A stretch of DNA of 24,573 bases from a virus, in the IMG/VR virus record IMGVR_UViG_3300021197_000720, positions 1-24,573 of that record; one strand, given 5' to 3'. The position numbers were made by a program, and so were the translations under genes. Positions 2,166 through 22,374 of the stretch are shown in pieces. The notes under the pieces were generated by a model, which saw nothing but the letters and a program-made list of their open reading frames with translations, was not told the origin of the DNA and made no database searches. The first letter of the stretch is position 1. Every line of letters begins with the position of its first letter.

Positions 2166-3014
2166 ATGGATACAATAATTGGACTCGGCGCAGCCGGGTG
2201 TAATATAGCGGAAAAGTTTGCCGAATACTCTCAATATAAAGTATTGAAAGTGGATTCTGAAAGGCGACCTTTTGACTGGCTTAACAAGGGCTTTAAGTTA
2301 ATTCCTGAACAAAAATCCCCTGAAGAATACGAAGAGAACTGTCCTTTTCTAGATGACTTGATTGAAGAGATTGATGGTGAAATCCTTTTTATTCTTGCAG
2401 GAGGAGGCAAAATCAGCGGCGCTGCATTGCGGATACTTCAGCAGCTTCAAGATAAGAAGGTTAGTATCTTATATATCCAGCCAGATACTGACCTCCTACC
2501 AAGGACAGCAAAGCTACAGGAAAACCTTACTTATGGCGTCCTCCAAGAGTACGCACGATCTTCCGTCTTCGAAAGGATTTATCTTGTCAAGAACTCTGCT
2601 GTTGAAGATATACTGGGAGAGATCTCTATAGCTGAATATTATAATAAGATTAACGATTTCATCGTATCAGCTATCCATATGATTAATGTGTTCAAGCATT
2701 CAGAACCAATTTCGTCAAACTTTGAAGAGAACAACGTCGCAAGCCGAATTACAACCTTTGGCATGGTTAATCTTGAAGATGGCAAGGAGACTTTATTTTT
2801 CCCCTTGCAATTTCCGCGTGAAAAGATATACTATTATGCAATAAATAAGAATAGTCTTAAGAACGATAAGGGATTGCACCGAAAAATAATGCAACAGGTA
2901 AAATCTAAAATAGATAATACAGAAATTAGTGTAACTTATGGAATTTATTCCACTGATTATGATGACGATTATGTATATTCTGTTGCAAACGCTAGTTTCG
3001 TACAAAATTCTTAA
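2166..3014 (+). CDS. Divergent tubulin/FtsZ-like GTPase family protein
   Basis: 282 residues from the ATG at 2166, chosen because AGAGG lies just upstream and the nucleotide-binding loop then starts at residue 6; an in-frame ATG at 2145 would overlap the previous gene. Residues 6-13 (GLGAAGCN) match the tubulin/FtsZ T1 loop. Residues 79-85 (GGGKISG) have the spacing of the signature GGGTGSG but with K-I in place of T-G. Residues 158-172 contain IND (Asn163-Asp164) inside a hydrophobic helix, like the central H7 helix of FtsZ (AND). The expected T7 loop GxxNxDxxD after H7 is not evident; only SNFEENN is seen. At 282 residues it is shorter than FtsZ or PhuZ. It may build a filament in the infected cell or bind GTP without hydrolysing it; both are inference. 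Confidence 0.65.
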   Translation: MDTIIGLGAAGCNIAEKFAEYSQYKVLKVDSERRPFDWLNKGFKLIPEQKSPEEYEENCPFLDDLIEEIDGEILFILAGGGKISGAALRILQQLQDKKVSILYIQPDTDLLPRTAKLQENLTYGVLQEYARSSVFERIYLVKNSAVEDILGEISIAEYYNKINDFIVSAIHMINVFKHSEPISSNFEENNVASRITTFGMVNLEDGKETLFFPLQFPREKIYYYAINKNSLKNDKGLHRKIMQQVKSKIDNTEISVTYGIYSTDYDDDYVYSVANASFVQNS

Positions 3015-3022
3015 CTTTCATA

Positions 3023-3050
3023 TTGACTTTGATTTGTAAGGCGGTATAAT
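3023..3050 (+). promoter_or_regulatory. Sigma70-like promoter ahead of the gp32-like gene
   Basis: TTGACT at 3023-3028 and TATAAT at 3045-3050 are separated by 16 bases. The site lies in the longest gap of this part of the window, between the tubulin-like gene and the single-strand binding protein, leaving a leader of roughly 110 bases. Confidence 0.7.
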
Positions 3051-3167
3051 ATGTTCATCTACGATCGTAAGAGTTACGAGAATTATCGTGATGCGATCTT
3101 GTATTTTATTGAGAAGCTTGGAAGATTTGCCGAGCTTACTTTAGCTAAATTCAAAAGGAGAATATAA
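3051..3167 (+). CDS. Possible 38-residue leader ORF before gp32
   Basis: An ATG at 3051 opens a 38-codon frame whose TAA stop overlaps the ATG of the next gene (TAATG). AAGGCGG lies six bases upstream of it. The peptide starts MFIYDRKSYENYRDAILYF and ends basic (FKRRI). Its ATG directly abuts the -10 hexamer, so transcripts from that promoter would start downstream of it, and only read-through from upstream could translate it. It could equally be untranslated leader. Not recognised. Confidence 0.3.
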   Translation: MFIYDRKSYENYRDAILYFIEKLGRFAELTLAKFKRRI

Positions 3168-3913
3168 TGGCTATTAATATGGATAAGATGAAGCAGAAGC
3201 TAGAAAGCCTGCAAGGAAATGGAAATAAAAAGAGTGCCTTTTGGCGTCCTCAAGACGGTGAACAGGTTATTCGTATCGTCCCCACAGCCGATGGCGACCC
3301 GTTTAAGGAATATTGGTTTCATTACAACCTTGGAAACAACCCTGGGTTTTTGAGTCCAAAGAAGAACTTTGGCGAGGATTGTCCGCTAGACAGTTACGTT
3401 CGTGATCTTTATCGCCAAGGCGACGAAGAGAGCATTAAGATGGCAAAGAATCTTTCTGCCCGCCAGCGCTTCTTCTCTCCGGTGGTAGTCCGTGGCGAAG
3501 AAGATCAGGGTGTCCGCATCTGGGGATTTGGTAAAATGGCTTATCAAGAGCTATTAAATCTTGTTCTCAATCCCGATTATGGCGATATTACGGATACAGA
3601 AGAAGGTACAGACCTTGTTATTAAATATGGTAAGCCCCCCGGCGCACAATTCCCGCAAACTTCAATTACTCCTCGTCGAAAGACAACAAAACTCTTTGAT
3701 GAGGATGAGAAAGTCTCGGCTGCTTTAACGCAAATCCCTGACTTTGATAGCGTTTTCGAGAAGAAGAGTGCAACAGAGGTGCAGTCGATGCTTGATGACT
3801 TTATCGCAAGCCAGCTTGGTGATGATGACGAAGTAGAGAGTGCCTCCACTGAAAGTCAGAAATATGGTGGAGATTCCATCGATAGTAAATTTGACGAACT
3901 TCTGCAAGAATAA
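3167..3913 (+). CDS. T4 gp32-like single-stranded DNA-binding protein
   Basis: 248 residues. It coats single-stranded DNA at the fork and during recombination, working with UvsX and the helicase encoded downstream. The N-terminus is basic with a Lys-rich amphipathic stretch. The core includes SAFWRPQDGEQVIRIVPT, PFKEYWFHYNLG and RFFSPVVVRGEEDQGVRIW, the OB-fold pattern of gp32 relatives. The C-terminal 50 residues are strongly acidic and end in DSKFDELLQE, like the gp32 tail that contacts partner proteins. T4 gp32 has a His-Cys3 zinc site; here only one Cys is present in that region (EDCPL), so zinc is probably absent. GGAG sits seven bases before the ATG. The gene has its own consensus promoter and a leader of about 110 bases. 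Confidence 0.85.
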   Translation: MAINMDKMKQKLESLQGNGNKKSAFWRPQDGEQVIRIVPTADGDPFKEYWFHYNLGNNPGFLSPKKNFGEDCPLDSYVRDLYRQGDEESIKMAKNLSARQRFFSPVVVRGEEDQGVRIWGFGKMAYQELLNLVLNPDYGDITDTEEGTDLVIKYGKPPGAQFPQTSITPRRKTTKLFDEDEKVSAALTQIPDFDSVFEKKSATEVQSMLDDFIASQLGDDDEVESASTESQKYGGDSIDSKFDELLQE

Positions 3914-3921
3914 TAGTCTGC

Positions 3922-3953
3922 CCGCAGGGAGGCACGGGGTTACAGGTGTCTCA
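3922..3953 (+). repeat. 32-base hairpin repeat, copy 1
   Basis: Identical to 4197-4228. The arms GAGGCAC (3929-3935) and GTGTCTC (3946-3952) form a 7-bp stem with one G-U pair around the loop GGGGTTACAG. It ends 26 bases before the ATG of the Hc1-like gene, just ahead of an A-rich stretch and the AAGGA ribosome site. No T-run follows, so it does not look like a classical terminator. Confidence 0.85.
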
Positions 3954-3979
3954 CTTCACAACAAAAAAAAAGGAACAAA

Positions 3980-4177
3980 ATGAATAACGATACAAATACA
4001 CCAGATACACTTACTAATATGATTACCCTTCTAGAAGAAGTGCGAACGGATTATAATAAGTTCTATGTTGATGGCAATGCATCCGCAGGCACCCGAGTCC
4101 GCAAGGCAATGCAGCGGATCAAGACCGATGCTCATACTGTACGCACTCATGTACAGTCAACAAAGAACGGCGGCTAG
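3980..4177 (+). CDS. Hc1-like histone H1-type DNA-binding protein
   Basis: 65 residues. The pattern LLEEVRTDYNKF, DGNASAGTRVRKAM, then a basic helix (RIKTDAHTVRTHVQ) matches the layout of the chlamydial Hc1 family: an acidic/amphipathic helix, a GNxxAxxRxRK turn, then a basic helix. Such short forms lack the long Lys/Ala tail of Hc1. The likely role is binding DNA or RNA in the infected cell or inside the head. A strong ribosome site AAGGA precedes the ATG. The gene is bracketed by the two copies of the 32-base hairpin repeat, one before it and one before the next gene. The family match is by pattern only. Confidence 0.6.
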   Translation: MNNDTNTPDTLTNMITLLEEVRTDYNKFYVDGNASAGTRVRKAMQRIKTDAHTVRTHVQSTKNGG

Positions 4178-4196
4178 CTCTTCAGTTAGTCGAACA

Positions 4197-4228
4197 CCGC
4201 AGGGAGGCACGGGGTTACAGGTGTCTCA
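4197..4228 (+). repeat. 32-base hairpin repeat, copy 2
   Basis: Exact copy of 3922-3953. The stem is 4204-4210 with 4221-4227, and the loop is 4211-4220. It ends 23 bases before the ATG of the FKBP gene, almost the same position relative to the start codon as copy 1. Upstream flanks differ (CC in copy 1, AC in copy 2), which sets the repeat limits. Confidence 0.85.
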
Positions 4229-4251
4229 TTTACACAAAACAAGGATTTTTA

Positions 4252-4689
4252 ATGAGTTTGATTACTAAAGGACATAACGTGAAGGTCCATTATAAAGGCA
4301 CGTTGACAGATGGTACAGAGTTCGACAATTCGAAAACACGAGGAAACCCAATTCAAGTCCAAGTGGGGTCGGGTCAATTGATTAGCGGATTTGATAGTGC
4401 CTTGCAAGGAATGGGGCTTGGCGAAGTTAAGACATTTACAGTTAAAACTGATGATGCCTATGGTGCAGTCAAGGAAGATGCAATCCAAGAGTACCCCAAG
4501 ACTGTGTTCCCACAAGGATACGAGTTTAGCGTCGGAGCCACTGTCCAAGGAGCAAGCCCTACAGGTGAACAGGTTCTAGCTCGGATCATTAGTCTTGGTG
4601 AGAGCACGGTCGTTCTTGATCACAATCACCCGCTGGCTGGTGAAGACCTTACCTTCGAGGTAGAGATTATTGATATTGAAGGCGAATAG
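4252..4689 (+). CDS. FKBP/SlyD-type peptidyl-prolyl isomerase
   Basis: 145 residues. It catalyses cis-trans isomerisation of prolyl bonds and acts as a folding helper. The FKBP core is clear: VKVHYKGTLTDGTEFDNS, then ISGFDSALQGMGLGEVKTF, and AYGAV at the active-site edge. The insertion in the flap and the late LDHNHPLAGEDLTFEVEI motif are those of the SlyD branch, which carries an extra chaperone domain. The His/Cys-rich metal-binding tail of SlyD is missing. No signal peptide, so cytoplasmic. With the GroES-like gene at 11891 it suggests the phage supplies folding aids for its own proteins. AAGGA precedes the ATG, and the next gene starts three bases after its stop. Confidence 0.93.
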   Translation: MSLITKGHNVKVHYKGTLTDGTEFDNSKTRGNPIQVQVGSGQLISGFDSALQGMGLGEVKTFTVKTDDAYGAVKEDAIQEYPKTVFPQGYEFSVGATVQGASPTGEQVLARIISLGESTVVLDHNHPLAGEDLTFEVEIIDIEGE

Positions 4690-4692
4690 GCT

Positions 4693-5496
4693 ATGAAATC
4701 ACCATTACGTTATCCAGGCGGTAAAACCCGTGCTGTTAAAACAATAATGGAGTTCATTCCCGAGGATTGTGGGGAGCTTTGCTCCCCCTTTCTCGGTGGT
4801 GGATCGGTTGAATTAGCCTTGGCAGAAAAAGGGATTAAAGTTCATGGCTACGACTTGTTTGAGCCTTTGACTTGGTTTTGGAAAGCTCTCTTAGAATCGC
4901 CACAAGAGCTAGCCCGAGTTGTTGGCTCATTTAGAAAAGACCACAGTCTTTTTGAATTAAACGATATCAAGGTTAAAGGTCTTTTAAAAGAAGACTTTAC
5001 TAAGATACGCGAAGAGTTGAGAGAGGAAAGCAAGTACTCCATAACTAACGCAGCAAAGTTTTATGCGATAAATCGCAGCAGCTTCTCAGGAGCTACCTTC
5101 AGCGGCGGATGGTCTCAACGCGCAGCATACGCAAGATTTACTAACTCTTCAGTTGAAAGAGTCAGGAATTTTAAAGAACCCAATCTAAGTGTCAAGTGTG
5201 AAGGATTTAAAGAATCCATTTCAAAACACCCTGACACTTTTTTGTATTTAGATCCTCCTTACATGCTTGGAAAGAAATCAGACAAGCTTTACGGGGATAA
5301 GGGAAGCACTCACTCTGGTTTCGACCACGATGGGCTACATAGCCTATTGACAAAGAGATCAAACTGGGTTCTGTCCTATAACGATTGCGATGACATAAGA
5401 GACTTATACTGTGATTATAATATTGTAGAAGCCAAGTGGTCCTACGGTATGAATAAGAGCAAGAAGTCTTCTGAGCTATTAATCATAGCTAAATAA
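4693..5496 (+). CDS. dam: D12-class DNA adenine N6-methyltransferase (Dam family)
   Basis: 267 residues. It transfers a methyl group from S-adenosylmethionine to adenine N6. Motifs are in the D12-class order: PLRYPGGKTR near the N-terminus (motif X), SPFLGGGSVEL (motif I, cofactor binding) and LYLDPPYMLG (motif IV, catalytic DPPY). Length is as expected for Dam. No restriction nuclease lies beside it, so it looks like an orphan methylase that could protect phage DNA from host enzymes or mark it for packaging or repair; the target site cannot be told from sequence. The start follows the FKBP stop by three bases and uses a weak purine stretch, so translation is probably coupled. A 7-bp GC-rich hairpin lies within its first 35 codons (see 4771-4787). 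Confidence 0.9.
   Translation: MKSPLRYPGGKTRAVKTIMEFIPEDCGELCSPFLGGGSVELALAEKGIKVHGYDLFEPLTWFWKALLESPQELARVVGSFRKDHSLFELNDIKVKGLLKEDFTKIREELREESKYSITNAAKFYAINRSSFSGATFSGGWSQRAAYARFTNSSVERVRNFKEPNLSVKCEGFKESISKHPDTFLYLDPPYMLGKKSDKLYGDKGSTHSGFDHDGLHSLLTKRSNWVLSYNDCDDIRDLYCDYNIVEAKWSYGMNKSKKSSELLIIAK
4771..4787 (+). other. Intragenic GC-rich hairpin in dam
   Basis: GGGGAGC, a TTT loop and GCTCCCC form a perfect 7-bp stem, followed by CTTTCTC. It lies inside the coding frame. It could slow or end transcription but may be chance. Confidence 0.45.
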
Positions 5497-5517: not shown

Positions 5518-6624
5518 ATGGCTAAAAAAGCAACTAAGATAGGGCGTCTGAGCCTGACAGAGATGAAAAATCTAATTAATAAGAAGGTGGGGATGTCCGT
5601 CGCCCATGACCTAACCAAGGATAACCCAACCGAAGTGAAGCAATGGATTCCAACGGGCTCCCGCTTTCTTGATTCGATTATCTGTAGAGGAAAGACAGCA
5701 GGAATCCCAGTCGGTAAGATTACAGAGATCGCCGGCCTCGAAGGGGCAGGCAAGTCTTGGATGGCAACCCAGGTTGCTGTAAACGCTCAAAAGATGGATA
5801 TGGATGTTGTCTACTTTGATTCAGAGTCAGCCATCGATCCAGGATATCTAGCTGCACTTGGCGTAGATCTTAACAGGTGTCTGTATGTACAGGCGACTTC
5901 AGTCGAAATGGTCCTAGAGACTATTGAAGAGTTGTTGGGCTCCAATGAGGGACAAATGCTGTTCATTTGGGATTCCTTAGCTTTAACGCCTGCCATCTCG
6001 GACGTTGAAGGCGACTTCAATCCTCAATCCTCAATGGCAGTAAAAGCCAGGATTTTAGCTAAGGGTATGTCGAAGCTGACCGTGCCTATTGCTAATGCAC
6101 AGGCTACCTTCTTGGTTCTTAATCAGTTAAAAACTAACATTGCTTCTAACCCTGCGCAGCGAATCGAGGTAATGACTAACCCTTGGGTCACACCCGGCGG
6201 TAAAGCTATGCATTATGCTTATTCTCTGCGTGTATGGTTGACTGGTCGCAAGTCCAAATCATCCTTCATCATGGATGGAAATGATAGGATCGGCTATCAG
6301 GTTCAGGTAAAGTTGGAAAAATCAAGATTCGGAACAACAGGAAGGAGATGCAACTTTAACATACTATTTACTGGTCAGAACCCCGGCATTCAAGACGAAG
6401 AAAGCTGGCTCGATGCTTTGATGTCCTCTCCGAATATTGTACAGTCTGGAGCTTGGTATTCATTAATTCATAAAGATGGAACTCCAGAAAAGTTCCAAAG
6501 CAAGACGTGGACTAAGAAATTACAAAATGAGAAATTTAAACAAAGAGTTATTGAATTAATAGAGGATGAGATCGTCAAAAAGTATGACCAAAAAATGAAC
6601 AAGGTCGATTCTAAAGGAGAATAA
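5518..6624 (+). CDS. uvsX: UvsX/RecA-like recombinase
   Basis: 368 residues. An ATP-dependent strand-exchange protein for recombination-driven replication and repair. Walker A is at residues 73-80 (GLEGAGKS) and Walker B at about 147-153 (MLFIWDS, Asp152). The preceding TGSRFLDSIICRG and GIPVGKITEI are the usual start of the RecA fold. The conserved LNQLKTN segment and TPGGKAMHYAYSLRVWLTG agree with UvsX proteins of T4-like phages (T4 UvsX has 391 residues). The N-terminal 25 residues (LSLTEMKNLINKKVG) could be the subunit-contact helix. It lies downstream of gp32 and upstream of the exonuclease and helicase, its usual partners. AAAAAAGGA precedes the start. Confidence 0.92.
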   Translation: MAKKATKIGRLSLTEMKNLINKKVGMSVAHDLTKDNPTEVKQWIPTGSRFLDSIICRGKTAGIPVGKITEIAGLEGAGKSWMATQVAVNAQKMDMDVVYFDSESAIDPGYLAALGVDLNRCLYVQATSVEMVLETIEELLGSNEGQMLFIWDSLALTPAISDVEGDFNPQSSMAVKARILAKGMSKLTVPIANAQATFLVLNQLKTNIASNPAQRIEVMTNPWVTPGGKAMHYAYSLRVWLTGRKSKSSFIMDGNDRIGYQVQVKLEKSRFGTTGRRCNFNILFTGQNPGIQDEESWLDALMSSPNIVQSGAWYSLIHKDGTPEKFQSKTWTKKLQNEKFKQRVIELIEDEIVKKYDQKMNKVDSKGE

Positions 6625-8351: not shown

Positions 8352-9731
8352 ATGCAAAAAGAAAACATCAGCTTCTCAAAATATGGCAAGAATTTTCAAG
8401 AAGTACTCGCTTACTTAATTCTTGAAGATCGCCCCTTTTCGGAACAAATAGAAGAAGTGCTTGACGTTAACTTTTTTGAGTTAAATTACTTAAAAGTTTT
8501 TGTCTCTAAGATATTCAACTACCGAGCCAAGTACAAGGTTCATCCTACCTCAAAGATCTTTGATTCTATTATAAGAACAGAGCTAGATGATGAATCTGAA
8601 GCGACACGTGAGCAGGTCCGTCGATATTTTGCCCGCTCAATCGTAAGAGCCCCCACTGACGGCGAATATATCAAGAGCACTGCCCTCGACTTTTGCAAGA
8701 AGCAGAAGCTAAAAGAAGCGATATTAAAATCTGTTAACCTGCTTCAGAACTCTTCGTATGATGAAATCAAGAAATTGATAGACGATGCCTTGAATCTTGG
8801 TATCGATAACGATTACGGTCATGACTTTCAAAAAGATTTTGAATTGCGATATGAGCTTCGAGCACGAAACCCCGTGTCCACCGGATGGGATAAACTTGAT
8901 AACCTAACAAAAAATGGTCTTGGGAAGGGAGAGCTTGGCGTCGTCATTGCCCCCACCGGAGCAGGTAAGTCAATGGTTCTCGCTCATCTGGGAGCAGAAG
9001 CGGTCAAAGCAGGACGCAACGTTGTACACTATACACTAGAGTTGTCAGAAGAGGTGACAGGGCTCCGTTACGATAGTTGTATTAGCGGCGTCCGCCTGGG
9101 CGATCTACACTCAATGAAAGACATGGTGTACGACTCGATTAAGGAAGTCGAGGGTAAGCTAGTCATTAAAGAATACCCAACCAAATCAGCATCAGTTAAT
9201 ACTTTGCACTCTCATCTAGAAAAGTTACAAAAAAATAAAACAAAAATTGGAATGATTATAGTAGATTACGGTGATTTGCTCAAACCAGTGGGAAGTTATA
9301 GGGAGAAAAGGAATGAGTTAGAGTCTATTTATGAAGGACTCCGTGCTTTAGCACAAGAATTTGAATGTCCTATCTGGACAGCCTCCCAAACTAATAGGTC
9401 TGGTTTGAACGCAGAAGTAATTACGATGGAATCTATCTCGGAAGCGTTTAGTAAATGCTTTGTTGCAGATATGATATTTTCAGTTTCACGAACAATAGAA
9501 GATAAGAACACAAACCAAGGTCGCATTTTTGTAGCTAAAAACAGAAATGGACCAGATGGGCTTGTATTTCCTATCTTTATGGACACATCAAGAGTAAAAA
9601 TAAAGATACTGGACGCCCCAATTGTTTCAGATGAAAGAAAGCCGGTGAATAAACTTGTTGAGGTTTATCAGAAAAGCAAGAAGGAGTTCAATAGCGCAAA
9701 AAATGAAGGAAGTAAAGATGCAAACAGCTAA
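8352..9731 (+). CDS. DnaB/T4 gp41-like replicative helicase
   Basis: 459 residues. A hexameric 5'-3' helicase that unwinds the fork. The N-terminal 150 residues are helical, like the DnaB primase-contact domain. The RecA-like motor domain follows: VSTGWDKLDNLTKNGLGKGELG, Walker A PTGAGKS (Lys206), HYTLELSEEV, the Walker B-like IGMIIVDYGDLL, and TASQTNRSG, a typical DnaB-family motif. No primase gene is seen in this window. The ribosome site is weak (GGGACAG). The last 14 bases overlap the start of the ribonucleotide reductase gene, so the two are probably made together. Confidence 0.9.
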   Translation: MQKENISFSKYGKNFQEVLAYLILEDRPFSEQIEEVLDVNFFELNYLKVFVSKIFNYRAKYKVHPTSKIFDSIIRTELDDESEATREQVRRYFARSIVRAPTDGEYIKSTALDFCKKQKLKEAILKSVNLLQNSSYDEIKKLIDDALNLGIDNDYGHDFQKDFELRYELRARNPVSTGWDKLDNLTKNGLGKGELGVVIAPTGAGKSMVLAHLGAEAVKAGRNVVHYTLELSEEVTGLRYDSCISGVRLGDLHSMKDMVYDSIKEVEGKLVIKEYPTKSASVNTLHSHLEKLQKNKTKIGMIIVDYGDLLKPVGSYREKRNELESIYEGLRALAQEFECPIWTASQTNRSGLNAEVITMESISEAFSKCFVADMIFSVSRTIEDKNTNQGRIFVAKNRNGPDGLVFPIFMDTSRVKIKILDAPIVSDERKPVNKLVEVYQKSKKEFNSAKNEGSKDANS

Positions 9732-11574
9732 TCAAATATTATCAGATATCACAGTGCATATGAAATATGCACGTTATTTACCCAAGAAAGAAAGACGGGA
9801 AACTTGGAAGGAACTTGTTTCGAGAAACAAGAAGATGCATATTAAAAAGTATCCCGAGCTAAAAGAAGAGATTAATCAGGCGTACAATTACGTCTATGAT
9901 AAAAAAGTCCTCCCTTCTATGCGCTCTATGCAGTTTGGCGGCAAACCCATTGAGGTCGCACCCAACCGTATTTATAATTGCGCTTATCTTCCTATTGATG
10001 ATTGGCATTCCTTTAGCGAGGTAATGTTTCTTCTCCTTGGAGGTACTGGTGTAGGGTATTCAGTTCAAAAGCACCATGTTGAAGCTCTTCCAGAAGTTCA
10101 GAAACCAAGCTCAAAAAGAACTCGCCGGTTTTTAATTGGCGATTCTATTGAAGGCTGGGCTGATTCCGTTAAGACTTTGCTTCGTAGCTATTTTCACGGA
10201 GGATCTAGGATAAGGTTTGATTTTTCAGACATCCGTCCCAAGGGTTCGCGACTAGTTACTTCTGGTGGCAAAGCACCGGGACCTCAACCTCTCAAAGAGT
10301 GCTTATTAAAAATCGAGGGTATACTTGACGCGAAAGAAAATGGCGACAAACTTGAGCCAATTGAAGTACACGATATTGTTTGTTATATTGCCGATGCTGT
10401 ACTTGCCGGTGGCATTCGTCGCGCTGCTCTTATCTCTCTTTTTAGCGCCGACGATGAAGAAATGCTCGCCTCAAAAGCTGGTAAATGGTGGGAAACTAGC
10501 CCCCAGCGAGGTAGAGCGAACAATTCAATTGTCCTGATGAGACACCGCATAACAAAAGAATACTTTGCGGAGCTATGGGATAGAGTAAAAGCCTCAAATT
10601 CAGGTGAACCAGGGTTTTATTTTACTAACGATAAGGACTGGGGGACTAACCCTTGCTGCGAGATCGCTCTGCGACCATATCAGTTCTGTAATTTAACAGA
10701 AGTGAATGTTAGCGACGTTGACTCACAGGAAGAATATGAAGGAAGAGTCCAAGCTGCATCGTTTATCGCAACTTTGCAAGCAGGGTACACTGATTTCCAT
10801 TACCTACGCGATATCTGGCAACGTCACACGGAAAAGGACGGACTCATTGGCGTGTCTATGACGGGCATTGCCTCCGGTAATGTTTTAGGTCTTGATATGA
10901 CCAAGGGAGCGAGACTGGTTAAAAAAGAAAACCAAAGAGTTTCAAAGCTGATAGGAATCAAACCAGCAAGCCGCACAACCTGCGTAAAACCTGCTGGAAC
11001 AACTTCCTTGACACTAGGAACTTCATCTGGGATTCATGCTTGGCACAACGATTACTATATCCGCCGTATCCGAGTCGGTAAGAACGAGCCTATCTATACT
11101 TATCTCTCTATTAACCATCCCGAGCTTGTTGAAGACGAGTACTTTAGACCGCACGATACGGCTGTAATTTCAGTACCACAGAAAGCTCCTGAAGCTGCGA
11201 TTACACGACACGAAAGTGCCTTACAACTCTTAAAAAGGGTGAAGAAGGTCAGCCAAGAGTGGATTAAGCCCGGTCACCGCCGAGGACAAAACACTCATAA
11301 TGTCTCTGCCACTGTATCGATTAAAGATTCAGAGTGGATCGACGTAGGCGAGTGGATGTGGGAAAACAGAGATTACTATAATGGGCTTTCTGTTTTACCT
11401 CATAACGGGGGCTCATATGTACAGGCTCCGTTTGAAGACTGCTCCTCAGAGAAGTATGAGAAGCTGGCTGAAGCCCTCAGTAGCGTGAATTTATCTAAAG
11501 TAGTTGAGCTTGAAGACAACACAGATCTCAAAGGAGAGCAGGCGTGCGCAGCAGGAGCCTGCGAGGTCACTTAA
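9718..11574 (+). CDS. nrdJ: Adenosylcobalamin-dependent (class II) ribonucleotide reductase, monomeric RTPR type
   Basis: 618 residues from the ATG at 9718, chosen for its AAGGAAG site and a 14-base overlap with the helicase gene. It reduces ribonucleotides to deoxyribonucleotides using vitamin B12 cofactor, needing no oxygen. Residues line up with the Lactobacillus leichmannii enzyme: Cys88 in NCAYLP (redox Cys119), NPCCEI with Cys313 and Glu315 (thiyl Cys408, Glu410), and Cys324 in FCNL exactly 11 residues later (Cys419). The tail Cys610 and Cys615 have the C-x4-C spacing of the swinging pair (Cys731/736). PAGTTSL is the phosphate loop. It is shorter than the 739-residue reference. The host or its surroundings must supply B12. 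Confidence 0.93.
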   Translation: MQTANQILSDITVHMKYARYLPKKERRETWKELVSRNKKMHIKKYPELKEEINQAYNYVYDKKVLPSMRSMQFGGKPIEVAPNRIYNCAYLPIDDWHSFSEVMFLLLGGTGVGYSVQKHHVEALPEVQKPSSKRTRRFLIGDSIEGWADSVKTLLRSYFHGGSRIRFDFSDIRPKGSRLVTSGGKAPGPQPLKECLLKIEGILDAKENGDKLEPIEVHDIVCYIADAVLAGGIRRAALISLFSADDEEMLASKAGKWWETSPQRGRANNSIVLMRHRITKEYFAELWDRVKASNSGEPGFYFTNDKDWGTNPCCEIALRPYQFCNLTEVNVSDVDSQEEYEGRVQAASFIATLQAGYTDFHYLRDIWQRHTEKDGLIGVSMTGIASGNVLGLDMTKGARLVKKENQRVSKLIGIKPASRTTCVKPAGTTSLTLGTSSGIHAWHNDYYIRRIRVGKNEPIYTYLSINHPELVEDEYFRPHDTAVISVPQKAPEAAITRHESALQLLKRVKKVSQEWIKPGHRRGQNTHNVSATVSIKDSEWIDVGEWMWENRDYYNGLSVLPHNGGSYVQAPFEDCSSEKYEKLAEALSSVNLSKVVELEDNTDLKGEQACAAGACEVT

Positions 11575-11577
11575 TAC

Positions 11578-11605
11578 TTGACTTTATAATTTTAGTTGCT
11601 ATAAT
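11578..11605 (+). promoter_or_regulatory. Sigma70-like promoter after the RNR gene
   Basis: TTGACT at 11578-11583 and TATAAT at 11600-11605 with a 16-base spacer, in the 60-base gap between the reductase and the next small gene. It would drive the GroES and PEP carboxykinase genes. Confidence 0.7.
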
Positions 11606-11890: not shown

Positions 11891-12181
11891 ATGAATCCAG
11901 TTCCCTTTAACCGTCACCTCCTTGTCTCTAAACAGTTAGAGCAAGGAGAAGAAAATAAGAGTTTGGTCCTTGTACCGGAAGAGTATAAGCAGCGTGAGGC
12001 ATTTGCCATGGTAAGTGTCGTCACGCCAGCCCAAGACTGTAACTCTCAATGGTCACCGGGGGATACGGTTATCGTACCAACTCATACAATTGAGACTCTA
12101 TCTGTAGGTGGTGAGCAATATCATCTAGTATTAGAAAACCACGTACTAATGGGGCTTCTCGATAATATTAAAGGTGAATAA
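11891..12181 (+). CDS. groES: GroES-like co-chaperonin (gp31 role)
   Basis: 96 residues, the normal GroES length. It caps the GroEL ring; in T4, gp31 replaces host GroES so that the capsid protein can fold. The GroES pattern is visible: PVPFNRHLLV at the start, LVLVPEEYK in the mobile-loop region, PGDTVIVP in the core, and QYHLVLENHVLMGLL at the end. No GroEL gene is in the window, so the host chaperonin is the likely partner. AGGA precedes the ATG. Its TAA stop overlaps the ATG of the PEP carboxykinase gene by one base, which implies coupled translation of the two. Confidence 0.85.
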   Translation: MNPVPFNRHLLVSKQLEQGEENKSLVLVPEEYKQREAFAMVSVVTPAQDCNSQWSPGDTVIVPTHTIETLSVGGEQYHLVLENHVLMGLLDNIKGE

Positions 12182-13647
12182 TGAGAAATCTATCCCGCGC
12201 AGCGCTGGTCTACTGGACCTTGTTTAAAAAAGTTAATAAGCCCCGTCTTACAAACGACGGGGCTTTAGTCGTTGAGACTACTCCTCATACAGGACGATCG
12301 CCAGATGCGAAGTATATTGTAAGAGACGAGATTACTGATAAACTCGTTGACTGGGAGAATAATCAGCCTATTAGCGAAGAAGAGTTTGAAGAGTATTCAA
12401 GCAGCTTCCTCTCAGAGGCAGAGACCCATCGCTTTTATGAGCAAGATTTGTATGCCTGTGCCGATGACAAGCATCAGCTTCCTATTCGAGTTAACACCAT
12501 AAAGCCCTGGCACTCTTTGTTTGCAAAGAACATGTTCTTTAAACCATCCCCAGAGGAGATTAAAGATTTCAAGCCAGAGTTTCAAGTTTACTCAATGCCA
12601 TCGTACACTGAAGAACCAAGGGTGATCATTTCCTTCAAGAAGAAGATAATCTTAATCAGTGGCACAGATTACGCAGGTGAGATTAAGAAAAGTGTGTTCA
12701 CAGTGCTGAACTTTTTATTGCCTCAAAAGGGCGTACTGCCAATGCACTGTTCTGTAAGCCTCCGCGAAAAAGATCACAAGTCTACCGTCTTTTTTGGATT
12801 ATCCGGCACAGGAAAGACGACGCTATCCTCGGATACCTACAGCTATCTTGTCGGAGACGACGAGCATGGCTGGTCATCAACCGGACTGTTCAACTTTGAA
12901 GCGGGATGCTATGCCAAGACTATACGCCTCTCCCCAGATAAAGAGCCTTTGATTTTTGACGCCTGTCATAAGTTTGGAACGATTTTAGAAAACGTAGTCG
13001 TTAAAGATGACGACGCTGACTTTGATGATGCGACCCTCACAGAAAATACCAGAGCTTCTTACCCTTTAAGTTTCATCGATAACATATGGCTTGAGCCCCG
13101 GTGTGAACATCCAACTAATATTATCATGCTGACGTGTGACGCTTATGGGGTCCTCCCACCAGTGGCACGCTTAGATCCTGACAAGGCAGTCGAACAGTTT
13201 TTGCTTGGCTATACAGCAAAAGTGGCAGGAACAGAAAAAGGAGTCACGGAGCCAGAGCCCACGTTCTCGCACTGCTTTGGCTCCCCTTTTATGCCTCTGC
13301 GCCCTGGAGTATATGCAGAGTTATTGCGCTCCAAGATAAAGAAGCATAATGTTAAGTGCTGGCTTGTGAACACTGGTTGGCAAGGCGGACCATATGGCGA
13401 AGGCTCCCGTATCGATATCGCAGTCACACGTAAGATCATCGACGCAATCCAGGATGGGGACTTTGATGAGGATAAATGTAAGTATGTTTGGCATTCTTAC
13501 ACCGATCTTGAAGTTCCTGACAGCGACAAGGTTCCTTTGGATATGAGATTTCCAGAGCGCGGCTGGGCTTCTAAAGAGAAATATGTTGAGACCGCACGAA
13601 GCTTAATGAGCAAGTTTATTAATCGTTTAAAAACAATGACTTTGTAA
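12181..13647 (+). CDS. pckA: ATP-dependent phosphoenolpyruvate carboxykinase
   Basis: 488 residues against about 530-540 in bacteria, with the shortening mainly at the N-terminus and at the extreme C-terminus. It converts oxaloacetate and ATP to phosphoenolpyruvate, CO2 and ADP, the first step of gluconeogenesis from the TCA cycle. All recognisable active-site parts are present: TGRSP (Arg39), DYAGEIKK (Tyr164, Lys169/170), MHCS (His189), the kinase loop GLSGTGKTTLS (206-216), VGDDEHGW (Asp226/227), TENTR (Arg291) and TAKVAGTEKG, then LVNTGWQGG. So it looks active and of the ATP, not GTP, type. It lies between a GroES-like and a lytic transglycosylase gene, with phage codon style and no sign of decay. 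A metabolic role during infection is inference. AAAGGTG precedes the start. Confidence 0.95.
   Translation: MRNLSRAALVYWTLFKKVNKPRLTNDGALVVETTPHTGRSPDAKYIVRDEITDKLVDWENNQPISEEEFEEYSSSFLSEAETHRFYEQDLYACADDKHQLPIRVNTIKPWHSLFAKNMFFKPSPEEIKDFKPEFQVYSMPSYTEEPRVIISFKKKIILISGTDYAGEIKKSVFTVLNFLLPQKGVLPMHCSVSLREKDHKSTVFFGLSGTGKTTLSSDTYSYLVGDDEHGWSSTGLFNFEAGCYAKTIRLSPDKEPLIFDACHKFGTILENVVVKDDDADFDDATLTENTRASYPLSFIDNIWLEPRCEHPTNIIMLTCDAYGVLPPVARLDPDKAVEQFLLGYTAKVAGTEKGVTEPEPTFSHCFGSPFMPLRPGVYAELLRSKIKKHNVKCWLVNTGWQGGPYGEGSRIDIAVTRKIIDAIQDGDFDEDKCKYVWHSYTDLEVPDSDKVPLDMRFPERGWASKEKYVETARSLMSKFINRLKTMTL
12238..12265 (+). other. Strong hairpin inside the start of pckA
   Basis: The arms 12238-12247 (AAGCCCCGTC) and 12256-12265 form a perfect 10-bp stem around an 8-base loop. 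It resembles the stem of an intrinsic terminator but lies within codons 20-29 and is followed only by TTTA on this strand. On the opposite strand a six-T run follows after six bases. Confidence 0.7.
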
Positions 13648-14339: not shown

Positions 14340-15178
14340 GGGGTCATTTGTATCATTGGAAAGAATTAGTAATAGGAGAAAATCTAAATGCTATCATCTA
14401 TGCAAATCAACACAGCACTAAAATACTCGCTCTTCACGAGCCTACTATATTACCTTTCGACAAGTTTTGTACTTCATATGATTTGGGGCTAAAAAGCATC
14501 AATGAAGGAGATTCCAAGTATGAACTTGTTAGAGAACTTACGTTCAAGGCGGCTATTGACGGTCAGCATCCTTTTGCCGATAATTTGGTTTCTATCAAAA
14601 TCACTCCTGAAGAAAACCAAGTCAAAGTCGTAACCAAGAACGGTTCAGTTGTTCATATTGAATATGAAAAATTACGTATTTTCAACCCTGAAGGCATCCA
14701 GGGAATCCCTTTTGAGATAAACGAGAGGACTGATAATTATAAAGTTATCGACTGGTTTGATGTCAGATCTGGCGCAGGTCACAAGTTTGACTTCCTTGAA
14801 GACCCTGAAAATTCATTTGTAAATAAGATATATTTCTATCTTTCCGAACGAATCGATGGGAACGTAAGATATAAAGATCTAGCATCAGAATCTATATTAA
14901 CAAAGCAAGAATTACATAGTCCTGATTATTCTGACACTGTTGCTCGACTTAAGACTATCTCGATGATGAAAGAAGCAGGTATTAACGGACAATCAAATGG
15001 AGTCCGTCAGTTCTTACCAATACGCCTTGAGCTTTATCATCGAGAAGTTATACCAAACAAAGCATTTGACTTTGTTGAAGAAGGCAATATAATAGTTGAT
15101 AATAGAACCGAAGAGAATGTTTTAAATGAGTGGATTTCATCTTGCAGGAATAGTGCCAGTAGCAGGGCAACCGCTTGA
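14333..15178 (+). CDS. Unknown protein, first gene of an overlapping trio
   Basis: 281 residues, not recognised. It overlaps the end of the transglycosylase gene by 7 bases; AGAGGA lies four bases before the ATG, which favours this start, though the start is not certain because the next in-frame ATG is far downstream. The protein appears soluble with mixed strands and helices: NAIIYANQHSTKILAL, a strand-rich part QVKVVTKNGSVVHIEYEKLRIF, and a helical end with KTISMMKEAGING and LPIRLELYHREVIP. Its last 53 bases overlap the following gene in another frame, an unusually long overlap. The strict pairing suggests that it works with the nucleotidyltransferase-like product. Confidence 0.75.
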   Translation: MLRGHLYHWKELVIGENLNAIIYANQHSTKILALHEPTILPFDKFCTSYDLGLKSINEGDSKYELVRELTFKAAIDGQHPFADNLVSIKITPEENQVKVVTKNGSVVHIEYEKLRIFNPEGIQGIPFEINERTDNYKVIDWFDVRSGAGHKFDFLEDPENSFVNKIYFYLSERIDGNVRYKDLASESILTKQELHSPDYSDTVARLKTISMMKEAGINGQSNGVRQFLPIRLELYHREVIPNKAFDFVEEGNIIVDNRTEENVLNEWISSCRNSASSRATA

Positions 15179-15992
15179 CTTCAATATGCCTTGGCATGAT
15201 TCGCTAATGCCAATCTCCCAAAACTACTTGGCTGTTGAAAGGGCGGTTATTGAATGTGCTTATGCTGGTTGCGAGACAATATGGCTCATCTGCCATACGG
15301 ACATGCAGCCTTTGATAAGGCATCGTCTTGGAGATTATGTCCAAGACCCTGTTTGGATTAATCGCAGATATGAACTTCAAAGAGACAAATTCCACAAGCC
15401 AGTGCCTATCCACTATGTACCTATCCATCCAAGAGATAGAGAGAAGCGTGACTGCTTATCTTGGAGTGTGCTGTACGGCGCATGGATGTCTCAAAAGGTA
15501 TGCGGAAGGTTAAGCATTCATTTGAAACCTGATATGTATTACACAGCATTCCCTTATGGAGTCTACCACGTTTCGAAAGTTCGGGAGCATCGAAAAGCCA
15601 TATCTTCCAAGAGACCTTTTTATCTTTCACACAATGGAAAGACAATAATTGATGGTGAGTATCTAGCCTTCACAGCAACCCCCGATACGTTTAGGAGGTT
15701 GAGTTCCGAAGTGGCTGTAAAATCAACTGGTGTTTATGAGGACGAAGCGAGAACAAAGAAACTACCTATTGAAGAAAGATATTCTTATAGGCACTTTAAA
15801 CTTGAGCAAGTTTTTGATACACTGTCTTTAGACGGAGCAAAGGTTCACGAATTGGAAAGATACTGGAGAATTGATTCTTGGGAAGAATACAAGAAGTATA
15901 TGGCTGTCGAGAAGGCACATATCAGAAGGCCAGGTAAATCCCTCTTGTCTTACAAAGAATGGAATGGAATTGGAGTAGACGAAATTGAATGA
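15126..15992 (+). CDS. Nucleotidyltransferase-like protein (GT-A/NTP-transferase fold)
   Basis: 288 residues. The start HLAGIVPVAGQPLDF, followed by LMPISQNYLAVERAVIECAY and AGCETIWLICH, follows the pattern of sugar-nucleotide and other NTP transferases: a Gly-rich nucleotide loop, a substrate helix, then aGc..I.lv. The usual GxGxR lysine/arginine signature is altered, with PVAGQPL in its place, so the substrate is unclear. The C-terminal half has Tyr/Arg-rich segments and no known motif. The start at 15126 is needed to include the N-terminal loop and makes a 53-base overlap with the previous gene. Its TGA overlaps the cysteine synthase start by 8 bases. A role in modifying a nucleotide, sugar or protein is inference. 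Confidence 0.6.
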   Translation: MSGFHLAGIVPVAGQPLDFNMPWHDSLMPISQNYLAVERAVIECAYAGCETIWLICHTDMQPLIRHRLGDYVQDPVWINRRYELQRDKFHKPVPIHYVPIHPRDREKRDCLSWSVLYGAWMSQKVCGRLSIHLKPDMYYTAFPYGVYHVSKVREHRKAISSKRPFYLSHNGKTIIDGEYLAFTATPDTFRRLSSEVAVKSTGVYEDEARTKKLPIEERYSYRHFKLEQVFDTLSLDGAKVHELERYWRIDSWEEYKKYMAVEKAHIRRPGKSLLSYKEWNGIGVDEIE

Positions 15993-16839
15993 CATAAACA
16001 ACCTAATTGGTAACACACCATTTATAAAGCTAGGTGAAAAGCTTTATGCAAAGCTAGAAACTTATAACCCTTCGGGCTCTATCAAAGACAGGATGGCTTC
16101 TTATATCCTTTCGAAAGCCTTAGAGCGTGGAGATCTACAAGGAAAAGACACCATTGTGGTGGCTTCCTCGGGAAATACTGGCATCGCTTTTTCAATGCTC
16201 TCGGCTGCCCACAGCCTTGATTGTGTTGTGATTATGCCTTGCAATATGAGCGAAGAACGAAAGCAAATGATGAGGGCTTACGGCGCGACCATTGTTGAGG
16301 TTGGACCAAGTGCGTTCAAAGATGCAATATCTCTCCGTGATAAGATGCTGGAAGAGAATTCTAATTACTGGTCACCCAAACAATTCAGCAACCCTGACAA
16401 CATTGAGTGCCACCGTCGCACCACTGCTGTAGAGATAGCGCAATCTGTCCTAGAAATACCCGCACGTTTGTCAGCCCTTGTAAGCGGAGCCGGTACAGGG
16501 GGAACGATTATGGGATGTCAATCCTACTTCCCTCGGTTATGGAAGGAAACCAAAATGCTCCTAACAACCCCAGCCGAAGATGCAGCTACTCATGGGATAC
16601 AAGGGATCAATGACGGCGCTGACTTTTTAGTGGACAAGAACCTGATCGATGAGGAGCTACTGGTGAGTACTGAAGACGCCAAGCAAAGAGCCAGCCAGCT
16701 AGCAAAAGAAAATGGCTTGCTCGTCGGCATCAGTTCTGGCGCAAACGTCCTCGCCGCCGAGCGATGGATAGAAAAAAACAATCCCACCGGAGTGGTGGTA
16801 ACCTTTCTTTGCGATAGAGGAGAAAGGTATTTAAGTTGA
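15985..16839 (+). CDS. Cysteine synthase-like PLP enzyme (O-acetylserine sulfhydrylase family)
   Basis: 284 residues. The family makes cysteine from O-acetylserine (or a related serine ester) and sulfide. The PLP Lys34 is in NPSGSIKDR, the substrate loop ASSGNTG is at 60-66, the phosphate-binding GAGTGGT is mid-protein, and GISSGAN and CDRGERYLS close the fold. All key residues are present. It is shorter than CysK (about 320) and ends right after the GERYLS motif, so the C-terminal dimer segment is trimmed. The only in-frame start is the TTG at 15985, because a TAG lies three codons upstream and the ATG at 15989 is in another frame. GGAG precedes it. Tight coupling to the two upstream genes suggests a joint pathway. 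Confidence 0.88.
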   Translation: MNDINNLIGNTPFIKLGEKLYAKLETYNPSGSIKDRMASYILSKALERGDLQGKDTIVVASSGNTGIAFSMLSAAHSLDCVVIMPCNMSEERKQMMRAYGATIVEVGPSAFKDAISLRDKMLEENSNYWSPKQFSNPDNIECHRRTTAVEIAQSVLEIPARLSALVSGAGTGGTIMGCQSYFPRLWKETKMLLTTPAEDAATHGIQGINDGADFLVDKNLIDEELLVSTEDAKQRASQLAKENGLLVGISSGANVLAAERWIEKNNPTGVVVTFLCDRGERYLS

Positions 16840-17192: not shown

Positions 17193-17221
17193 TTGACTTG
17201 TCACGATTCCAACACTATAAT
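17193..17221 (+). promoter_or_regulatory. Consensus sigma70 promoter for the DnaE gene
   Basis: TTGACT at 17193-17198 and TATAAT at 17216-17221 with the ideal 17-base spacer, in the 64-base gap before the polymerase ATG at 17246. The best promoter in the window. Confidence 0.8.
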
Positions 17222-17245: not shown

Positions 17246-20200
17246 ATGCAACGCACCAAATCATCTATCCCTTTTGTCGGACTACACGCCCATTCAGTAG
17301 CAGGCTCGCCCTTCGATGCCCTTGGGTATCCCCAAGCTCATATGGACTATGCCTATAGTAATGGAGCCGATGCCCTAGCCCTAACTGACCACGGCAATAT
17401 GAATGGACTGGCTTATCAGATTCTTCATGCTAAAAAGATGAAGTCAGAAGGCAAAGAGTTTAAGCCAATCTATGGTTGTGAGGCATACTTTACTCCATCC
17501 GTAAAAGAGTGGAAAGAGGAATACAATAAAGCCCAGCAGGATAAGAAGACTGCATCTAAAGCGAAGAAAGAATCAGAGAAGATTACAGCCGAAGACGAGT
17601 CTGCCTCTAAGCGCAAGTCTAATAAACTCCGCAGCCGAAGCCATCTTATACTGCTCGCACAAAACCAAGAAGGATTAAACAACATCTTTAATCTTATTTC
17701 GGAATCCTTCCAGGGCGATAACTTCTATCGATATCCCCGCTTGGATTTCGAACTTCTTAAGAAGTACAACAAAGGAATTATTGCTTCCTCTGCTTGTCTC
17801 GGAGGCGTTTACGCCACCTTGTATTGGAACAATAAGGACAAGGGAGAAGAAGCTGTTTTAGAGGCTATGCGAGACACAACCAAAAAAATGTTAGATATTT
17901 TTGGTGACCGTTGGTATGGCGAATTACAGTGGATTAAGTCAAAGGACCAGCATAACCTTAATCACTACATCCTTCAAATGAAAGAGGAATTTGGAATTAA
18001 GGTAATCTCTACAGCAGATAGCCACTACCCGAGCCCTGACGCTTGGAAGGATCGAGAGCTATACAAACGATTAGGAATTCTACCAGCCATAACTAAATAC
18101 AAGGACAAGCCCGAAGAGTTACCGGACTGGCTCTCGCCTGATTTGCCGGAAGAGTTGGAGGAAATCGGCTATGAGTTATATCCTAAAAATGGCGATCAAA
18201 TGTGGGAATCCTATAAGGAATACAGCAAGTATTCTGACAGACCTTATAATGATTCTGACGTTCTTGACTCTATTACTCTTACCCATGATATTGCTTTCAA
18301 TCGTATTGAAGGGTTTATCCCTGATAATAAAGTTCGTTTGCCCTCGTTTGTGGTCCCAGAAGGACAGACAGCTACCAATGCACTGATTGCTCAATGTATT
18401 GATGGCTTAAAATCCCTTAAGCTCAATAAGAAAAATGAGTATGTAGAGCGCTTGCGACACGAATTGCGTGTCATCGATGAAAGAGGCTTCAGCAAATACT
18501 TCCTGACGATGAAGGCAATCGCGGATAAAGCCAACGAGCATATGCTTTCAGGTCCAGGCAGGGGCTCTGCCGCTGGGTCCCTAGTGGCATATGTTTTAGG
18601 AATCACGCAGGTTGACCCTATCAAGTATGGGCTGCTGTTCAGCCGCTTCCTGCGATCTGACGCCCAAGACTATCCAGATATCGATTATGATGTTTCTGAT
18701 GCTTTCGGTCTTAAGGAGATCCTGGCAGAGGAGTGGGGTCATAAAACTGTTATCCCTATTTCAAACTTTAATACTCTACAGCTTCGATCTCTGATCAAGG
18801 ACATCAGTAAGTTTTATGACGTCCCGTTCAAAGATGTCAACTCTGTTACGTCAGTAATGGAAAAGGAAGCTATGCCCAAAGCCAAGGCAAAGCATGGCAT
18901 CAAAGCAGGAGTATACGCTCCGACCTTCGAAGAGGTTATGGAGTTCTCTGAATCCCTCCAACGGTTCTTAAGAAACTACCCCCAGATTAAAACACACGTC
19001 GAGGCTTTGTTTGGTCAACGTCGTTCAACCAGTAGGCACGCAGGCGGCGTCGTAATCGGAGAAGACCTGGATAAGCATATGCCTTTGATTAGTTCAGGCG
19101 GTATCTTGCAAACTCCTTGGTCAGAAGGACAGAACGTCCGTCATCTTGAGCCTCTTGGCTTTATTAAGTTTGACCTTCTTGGGCTTTCAACTCTCGAAAT
19201 GGTTGAGTCCTGTATTAGGCACCTTCTCCAGAGAACCAAAGGCGTTGAAAATCCAACCTATGATGACGTTAGGTCCTGGTACAATAAGAACCTGCATCCT
19301 GATGTCATTGACCTGGAAGATAAAGCAGTCTATAAGCATGTCTTCCACAAGGGCAACTTTGTTGGCATCTTTCAGTTCACAAACGAAGGCGCACAGAAAT
19401 TCTGTAAAAGCGCAAAGCCAAATAACATTATTGATATCTCTGCTATCACTTCGATTTACCGTCCCGGTCCTCTGTCCGCCAAGGTAGACCAAGAGTACGC
19501 GAAAGCCAAAAAGAACCCTGATGGGATTCACTATGTCAACAACGTTGTTAAAGAAGTAACATCGGAGACAGCAGGGTTCCTCATCTTCCAGGAGCAGATT
19601 GCTCTTCTTGCTCATAAGCTGGGCAAGGACATCAGCTTGGATGAAGGGAACCTCCTCCGAAAGCTCTTGACAAAGAAAGGAACAGGCAAGGGCGCACAAG
19701 AGAAAGAAAAGATCAGAGTTAAGTTTGTGGATGGTTGCCTTGAAAAGGGTATCGACCGAGCCACTTCCGGTGCAATGTGGAAGAAGTTTGAGTACTTCTC
19801 TGGCTACGGCTTCAATAAAAGCCACGCGGTATCTTACTCCGTTCTCTCTTACCAGTGTGCTTGGCTATACTACTACTATCCAGAGTGCTGGGCTGCTGCG
19901 TTCCTCGACAAGGAGCCTGAAGCTCGCAAGGAGTTTGCAGTAAACCTGGTTCAAAAATATGGATTCAACGTTCAAAAGGTTGATGTTAATAAGTCAACAC
20001 AGCAATGGGAGATAGCCGAGGGCAATGTTCTGATACAACCCTTAAGCTCAATTAAGGGACTGGGTGACAAAGCCATCGAGCAGATATTAAACAACAGACC
20101 TTTCAACACTCCCGAGGAGCTTTTGTTCAGTGAGAACGTTGTTTACTCCAAACTAAATAAGAAAGCTCTTGAAGCTATGTGTGAGAGTGGCGCTTTAGAT

Positions 20201-22068: not shown

Positions 22069-22374
22069 ATGGAAAAAGCTAAGAAGAAAAAGAAAGGATG
22101 CGGACGCTGCCCCAACGTACCAGAAGGTCAAGGCTGCGCTCCTGCCTCTGAAAAGGTAGACCATCCCCCTCACTACAATGCTTCAAAGCTTGAAGTGATA
22201 GACGCAATTGAAGCGTGGGATCTGAATTTCAATTGTGGGAATGTCATAAAGTATGTCGTCCGCCACAAGCATAAAGGAAGTCCCGTTGAGGATATCGAGA
22301 AGGCAGTTTGGTATCTTAGTCGATACCTGGTGCAACTAAAGGAGGAAGCACGCCATGCAAGTACAAAGCCCTAA
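22069..22374 (+). CDS. DUF3310 (SaV-like) protein
   Basis: 101 residues. The Lys-rich and Cys-rich N-terminus (KKKKKGCGRCPNVPEGQGC) may bind metal or nucleic acid. The core VDHPPHYNASKLEVIDAIEA, NCGNVIKYVVRHKHKG and IEKAVWYLSRYLVQL is the DUF3310 family, often annotated as nucleotide kinase-like in phages although the activity is not firmly established. AGGAGAAT precedes the ATG. Its end overlaps the next gene by 20 bases and contains that gene's strong ribosome site AAAGGAGG. Confidence 0.88.
   Translation: MEKAKKKKKGCGRCPNVPEGQGCAPASEKVDHPPHYNASKLEVIDAIEAWDLNFNCGNVIKYVVRHKHKGSPVEDIEKAVWYLSRYLVQLKEEARHASTKP

Follow-up and report, generated by a model that had tools for sequence, protein, structure and literature searches.

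We describe a family of short structured RNAs that is widespread in phage contigs, is supported by covariation and lies outside Rfam 15. The element recurs in many marine phage contigs and was detected almost nowhere else, and two copies of it are present in the window analysed here, which is the whole 24,573-nucleotide stretch of IMG/VR record IMGVR_UViG_3300021197_000720. It folds as an H-type pseudoknot in which three bases 5' of a conserved GCAGG pair with the loop of the hairpin that follows, and its layout runs from these three bases through GCAGG, a 7-bp stem, a loop that pairs back and closes in ANAG, and a single A to a U-rich, nearly G-free tail. We give about an even chance to the reading that it is a pseudoknotted mRNA 3'-boundary element, acting as a leaky attenuator, as a barrier to 3' exonucleases or as both, between the mRNA of a gp32-like single-stranded DNA binding protein (ssb) and the genes downstream.

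Within the window, positions 3922-3953 are repeated letter for letter at 4197-4228, as a first-pass annotation of this DNA had claimed, and in a comparison within the window the match stretches to 35 nt at 97%. Both copies contain the stem GAGGCAC/GTGTCTC, whose 7 bp include one G.U pair, and the free energy of the 32-mer is -11.1 kcal/mol. The loop GGGGTTACAG is found at two places in the whole window, both inside the copies. Copy 1 is 8 nt downstream of the ssb stop and ends 26 bases before the ATG at 3980, and copy 2 is 19 nt downstream of the stop of a small histone-like (Hc1) gene and ends 23 bases before the ATG at 4252. The 7-bp stem, the distances of 26 and 23 bases and the gene names gp32-like, histone-like and FKBP given in that annotation all agree with our analysis (PF08804, PF07432 and PF00254 for the genes); the pseudoknot and the tight spacing behind the upstream stop codon are additional to it. 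All three pseudoknot pairs can form in copy 1, and the outermost position of copy 2 is unpaired, with A at 4196 opposite G at 4214. The features of this region are as follows.

3023..3050, plus strand: sigma70-like promoter TTGACT-16-TATAAT upstream of ssb, 11 of 12 consensus positions
3167..3913, plus strand: gp32-like single-stranded DNA binding protein (ssb), 248 aa (PF08804, E 3.4e-15; phrog_1192, E 2.9e-25)
3921..3923, plus strand: copy 1, 5' strand CCC of the pseudoknot helix, pairing with 3937-3939 (covariation); the repeat as first annotated begins inside this strand, 3922-3923 being its first two bases
3924..3928, plus strand: copy 1, conserved GCAGG (alignment conservation)
3929..3935, plus strand: copy 1, 5' strand of the 7-bp stem (sequence and covariation)
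3936..3945, plus strand: copy 1, loop GGGGTTACAG, of which 3937-3939 pair with 3921-3923 (sequence and covariation)
3946..3952, plus strand: copy 1, 3' strand of the 7-bp stem, followed by the usual A at 3953 and then the tail
3980..4177, plus strand: Hc1-like small histone-like gene, 65 aa (PF07432, E 1.9e-15), a cassette absent in the relative L012
4196..4228, plus strand: copy 2, whole element; pairs 4197:4213 and 4198:4212 possible
4252..4689, plus strand: FKBP-type peptidyl-prolyl isomerase (FKBP_C), 145 aa (PF00254, E 1.8e-21)
4693..5496, plus strand: D12-class DNA adenine methylase (PF02086), with no element ahead of the gene
5518..6624, plus strand: RecA/UvsX-like recombinase, closing the variable ssb-recA interval (PF00154, E 9e-37; gene order)

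The promoter-like site upstream of ssb is a common feature of these loci: of 170, 105 have a sigma70-like promoter in the 250 nt ahead of ssb where shuffles predict 18.8, and its commonest position is 80-100 nt upstream of the gene. Further near-consensus TTGACT...TATAAT sites occur in the window at 11578-11605, 15066-15093 and 17193-17221, which makes transcription units of the host sigma70 type likely here. Positions 2166-3011 hold the gene that most related loci have ahead of ssb; it is about 277-290 aa long in these loci and bears a GLGAAG motif. Its product had no Pfam match and no clear PHROG match, resembles FtsZ weakly (E 0.09) and is possibly an FtsZ/tubulin-like protein. Reading alone assigns ribonucleotide reductase to 9655-11574 and genes resembling PEP carboxykinase, cysteine synthase, DNA polymerase III alpha and IMP dehydrogenase to 12181-13647, 15985-16839, 17246-20698 and 22355-23422, respectively. 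Additionally, a VWA-type secreted lipoprotein-like ORF at 232-2157 repeats the motif CDGxDNDCDG, which is known from deltaproteobacteria and may hint at the host.

Both the stem and the pseudoknot helix covary, and this signal collapses in slid and shuffled controls. Across 157 distinct contexts loop base 4 and the base just 5' of CCGCAGG change together, with C-G found 77 times, A-T 36, T-G 21, T-A 7, G-C 4 and G-T once, and the 11 unpaired contexts miss one pseudoknot pair as window copy 2 does. Scans with a free 5' triplet, in which G was forbidden at loop base 3 or base 2, returned 44 matches comprising CGC:GCG (21), AGC:GCT (9), GGC:GCC (8), GGC:GCT (2) and four that were taken as chance (L317, L332, L340 and L341); one additional copy has CCCA...TGGG. 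Alignment A3 joins 65 of 87 main cores to 18 of 21 variant cores, the 11-nt-loop class, near-duplicates and three cores that have additional bases ahead of the stem having been removed manually. In these 83 cores 98.6% of cells are paired and the covariation score is 0.502, as compared with 0.206 when shuffled and at most 0.156 when slid. The 78-row alignment A1, which holds the distinct sequences among 248 copies after 4 of 252 loose matches were dropped, gave a similar result. At one stem pair 29 of the 83 rows have a sense-strand G.T wobble, which fits an RNA of that strand. GCAGG, the G at loop base 1, the ANAG that ends the loop and the GGC:GCC core of the stem are invariant or nearly so, and between loop base 4 and ANAG some copies accommodate additional sequence, either a hairpin or an insert. 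Selection, which had been suggested from the two window copies, is borne out for both sequence and structure. A plain hairpin does not need the conservation of GCAGG, the loop G and ANAG seen here, and this suggests an additional partner or an unusual fold; the conserved unpaired bases may hint at a bound partner or at a tight tertiary fold that resists polymerase or exonuclease.

The repeat is far from chance because its exact 24-mer core recurs in 30 IMG/VR stretches. With the stem letters left free, the pattern CCGCAGG-N7-GGGGTTACAG occurs in at least 119 IMG/VR stretches, and in nearly all of these matches the 7-mer is complementary to the sequence after the loop (L058, L101, L105, L109 and L123 were left out as chance matches without a stem). 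The pattern CCGCAGGGAGGCAC-N10-GTGTCT occurs in 78, and there is also a class with CCCACAGG and the loop AGGGTTATCAG. Identity among the ssb proteins beside the element falls to about 25% (median 53%), yet the core is nearly constant. The first-pass annotation had counted an absence of copies from related phages as evidence against its proposal, and the search instead uncovered this widespread family. Outside phage contigs the generalised pattern matches a single contig among 84,980 bacterial and archaeal genomes, namely one of 5.6 kb from a Flavobacteriales MAG, which has three copies and small phage-like genes, and one more copy lies on another contig of the same MAG. The consensus has no match in named phages; matches of the variant consensus to T7-like enterobacterial phages (BLAST 85%, E about 1) fall mostly inside the RNA polymerase gene and were taken as chance. 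The Rfam 15 covariance models gave no gathering match in the window and no match up to E 1 in seven other element loci, and up to E 10 gave one chance match in 3000-4800, located elsewhere than the element; membership of a known riboswitch class or Rfam family was rejected on these results. Among the papers listed by a literature search, we recognised none as describing the element; a paper on RNA structures of viruses and phages outside that list may do so. Long contigs (20, of 53-255 kb) carry merely 1-4 copies each, so the element is not a general-purpose terminator.

The usual gene order is ssb, element, a cargo gene with its own element repeated n times, recA, exonuclease and DnaB helicase, where ssb, recA and four cargo families were assigned by HMM and other families were taken from the window annotation. 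The element starts 6-17 nt behind the stop of the HMM-identified ssb gene in 120 of 122 distinct cases, a count restricted to elements at most 30 nt from that stop, and the 50 ssb-anchored loci include four farther offsets of 54, 60, 91 and 118 nt. The next start codon lies mostly 16-33 nt downstream of the element; some upstream ORFs in the start-distance survey were in the wrong frame, and placement was for this reason taken from the ssb-anchored counts. Pseudoknot-swapped variants in other phages stand behind a Cas4-domain exonuclease, an AAA ATPase and several families that have no functional name; the distance from the stop is mostly 6-12 nt, and that to the next start is often much longer. 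Because these variants behind unrelated genes hold the stop distance while the start distance varies, the upstream stop codon is the anchor and the distance to the next start codon is secondary. The first-pass framing of the repeat as an element of the following start codons is weakened accordingly by the unrelated copies, and a start-codon-anchored regulon was rejected. One phage contig (G026, with L309 and L343, and the contig of L256/L324) carries both forms, the element behind ssb and a swapped variant behind an AAA (MoxR-like) ATPase gene. TGA closes 1 of 122 element-bearing ssb genes versus 221 of 903 long ORFs; avoidance of TGA before the element was dropped as a candidate, as ssb genes of the other slot classes seldom end in TGA either, and TGA does close some element-bearing cargo genes. 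By reading, tRNA-like sequences directly follow the element downstream of ssb in L151, L181 and L290.

A survey of what fills the slot behind ssb, made with an ssb search blind to the element, covered 80 ssb loci of at least 599 relatives. The slot holds the element in 50 loci, a U-tract terminator in 14, a long hairpin in 6, the next gene directly in 7 and the contig end in 3. L233 is counted with the directly following genes since its terminator label lay, by reading, inside a gene, and in all seven such loci the element stands behind that next gene. Thus, a structured RNA follows ssb, or ssb plus one gene, in 77 of 77 informative loci. As controls we used 948 random windows and 60 informative slots after recA; the terminator criterion picked out 15 and 5 of these, respectively, and the long-hairpin criterion 64 and 7. 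The latter is so common that the six long hairpins alone are weak evidence. Long hairpins in the ssb slot of L240, L246, L277, L284 and L289 have loops with CCTCC, complementary to Shine-Dalgarno, and maybe form a second RNA family. On an ssb tree of 131 rows (dereplicated from 223) the element label changes 19 times and the terminator label 11 times, and well-supported branches force 14 and 10 of these changes, respectively; recombination between phages and long branches limit these exact numbers, and the tree makes it clear that element and terminator have been swapped repeatedly in evolution. Mel-JY01 and immuto, the nearest named phages with a related ssb, lack the element and leave hardly any gap ahead of recA, so its function would be dispensable in some lineages.

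The sequence behind the stem carries traces of a terminator. A G is present at tail positions +2 to +7 in 7 of 180 distinct contexts, where about 110 would be expected, and 66 of the 180 have a tail that qualifies as that of a terminator, against 10.8 expected. A G+C-rich hairpin behind a gene is also in place, with its 7-bp stem mostly 6-17 nt behind stops. A U-tract directly after the stem is absent from both window copies, which are among the 114 of 180 contexts that fail the U-tract criterion, and over all contexts it is enriched, not general. The earlier remark that no T-run follows the repeat therefore holds for the two window copies and not for the family, whose tail is U-rich and nearly G-free across the 180 contexts. 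Being G-poor and U-rich, with both window copies among the weak ones, the tail looks like a weakened U-tract; since 114 copies fall short, simple intrinsic termination is insufficient as an explanation.

The element most likely marks the end of the ssb message, because close relatives hold ordinary terminators in the same spot. It lies in the 3' untranslated region directly after the stop, chiefly of an ssb gene that usually has its own promoter, and transcription would be partly halted there, or 3'-to-5' decay blocked. The ssb message, or another upstream message, would in this way build up over those of recA and the cargo genes, which would be reached by read-through, and protein ratios may shift with it. 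The fold, the placement, the exchange with terminators and the promoter-like site upstream can be read directly from sequence; the halting of polymerase or exonuclease is what we infer. One of the candidates offered in the first-pass annotation, an RNA-processing or stabilising element, comes near to this preferred reading, and its start-codon framing and gp32 operator do not. A broader proposal, which we advance tentatively as a possibility, is that this tertiary-folded pseudoknot of about 32 nt represents a new class of phage cis-acting RNA that may block 3'-to-5' decay or answer to a bound factor, fix the ratio of ssb to recombinase and double as a joint for gene cassettes.

A regulated element is a rather doubtful alternative, in which a small ligand, or a protein of the phage or of the host, would bind GCAGG, the loop and ANAG and switch read-through, stability or downstream translation, as a riboswitch-like attenuator or operator. 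The near invariance of GCAGG and the strong conservation of the loop G and ANAG go beyond what pairing needs, extra hairpins are tolerated at one loop position as in many aptamers, and the start codon is mostly close downstream. These conserved unpaired bases are compatible with a riboswitch class, for which ligand binding is hypothetical. Against such regulation, the element stands behind the promoter-proximal gene and not in a leader, it alternates with terminators that look constitutive, the genes downstream are diverse, and Rfam riboswitches provide no match.

A gp32 translational operator, which the first-pass annotation had put forward, is improbable. On this model ssb would bind the pseudoknot, spread along the U-rich tail and block the next start, as T4 gp32 does on its own leader; PMC3014915 describes binding to a pseudoknot 67 nt upstream of the gp32 start and to an A+U-rich stretch, and here too a pseudoknot adjoins ssb and is followed by a U-rich tail. 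However, the window has no copy upstream of ssb, where an operator of the T4 type, in the leader of the gp32 gene itself, would lie. The element is 3' of ssb and also follows cargo genes, and no ssb was detected alongside the Cas4-like exonuclease, AAA ATPase and other genes that variants follow. Together with the plain terminators that relatives carry instead, this led us to reject the operator.

Gene content between ssb and recA changes at the element. Drawn from 14 multi-copy loci, of which L007, L220 and the window share one sequence, 30 locus pairs show cassette presence or absence breaking exactly there: the left flank of an element in one locus agrees with that of one copy in the other locus, and its right flank agrees with that of a later copy. 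For example, L012 has ssb, element and FKBP without the Hc1 gene, and its flanks have identities of 0.90 and 0.86 to the window. As flank matches switch at the element in these 30 pairs, it forms a seam of gene gain and loss. Homologous recombination between copies could add or drop small genes, and this mechanism is suggested because small genes between ssb and recA often bear their own copy. The exact breaks might otherwise be produced by a DNA-level site, such as a recombination seam, an origin or a packaging signal that merely looks like RNA, an explanation we hold to be very improbable given the common sense-strand wobble, the sense orientation at a narrow distance behind stop codons, the substitution by terminators and the expectation that any repeated sequence will recombine. 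Known stop-codon read-through signals have a similar distance and a pseudoknot fold, and the reading frame runs on uninterrupted across the element in 100 of 122 cases; stimulation of read-through by a pseudoknot just behind the stop is nonetheless scarcely credible and was rejected, as the window ssb closes with two in-frame stops (TAA TAG), the spacing is broad with offset frames of 49, 37 and 36 and no strong preference, and few stops are expected in the element by composition.

Because the element has been swapped repeatedly with plain terminators in its slot, its function is directly testable by replacement. The element could show how phages with ssb and recA in one operon make far more ssb than recombinase. 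It is also a small, well-bounded RNA fold for structural work.

Several known systems resemble the element in part. The closest parallel in position is the Rho-independent terminator of gene 32 in T4-like phages; PMC1524935 reports predicted terminators downstream of this gene in five of six genomes. Both are structured RNAs right behind a gp32 gene, and close relatives of the element phages have terminator-like hairpins in this slot. The element differs in its pseudoknot, its conserved loop and 5' segment and its mostly weak U-tract, and in most copies the gap to the next gene is too small for a promoter. The gene 32 mRNA pseudoknot of T4, T2 and RB69, as given in PMC3014915, is likewise small and H-type, in a gp32-type gene region with an A/U-rich stretch after it; it precedes gene 32, whereas the element stands behind ssb and unrelated genes. 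The promoter-early stem-loops (PeSL) of T4-like phages, said to be seams of gene gain and loss in work cited in PMC4503421, are also short repeated intergenic stem-loops at which genes are shuffled, as at the element. They are joined to an early promoter, unlike most element copies, in which the gap of mostly 16-33 nt to the next start is too short for one; the element differs further in its pseudoknot and in having few copies per contig. Two RNAs in PMC2864571 are comparable. The STAXI motif (RF01728) is a pseudoknot RNA near ssb-type genes, described there as tandem repeats, often with UUCG loops, in Enterobacteriales, and the element has no Rfam match at the thresholds applied. The L17 downstream element (RF01708) is a conserved structured RNA in the 3' UTR of the gene for an abundant protein, in another host group and behind another gene. 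Finally, the pseudoknot is supported by covariation, and a putative block to the enzyme would make the element, if it acts by blocking decay, a bacterial-virus counterpart of exoribonuclease-resistant RNAs that faces the other way.
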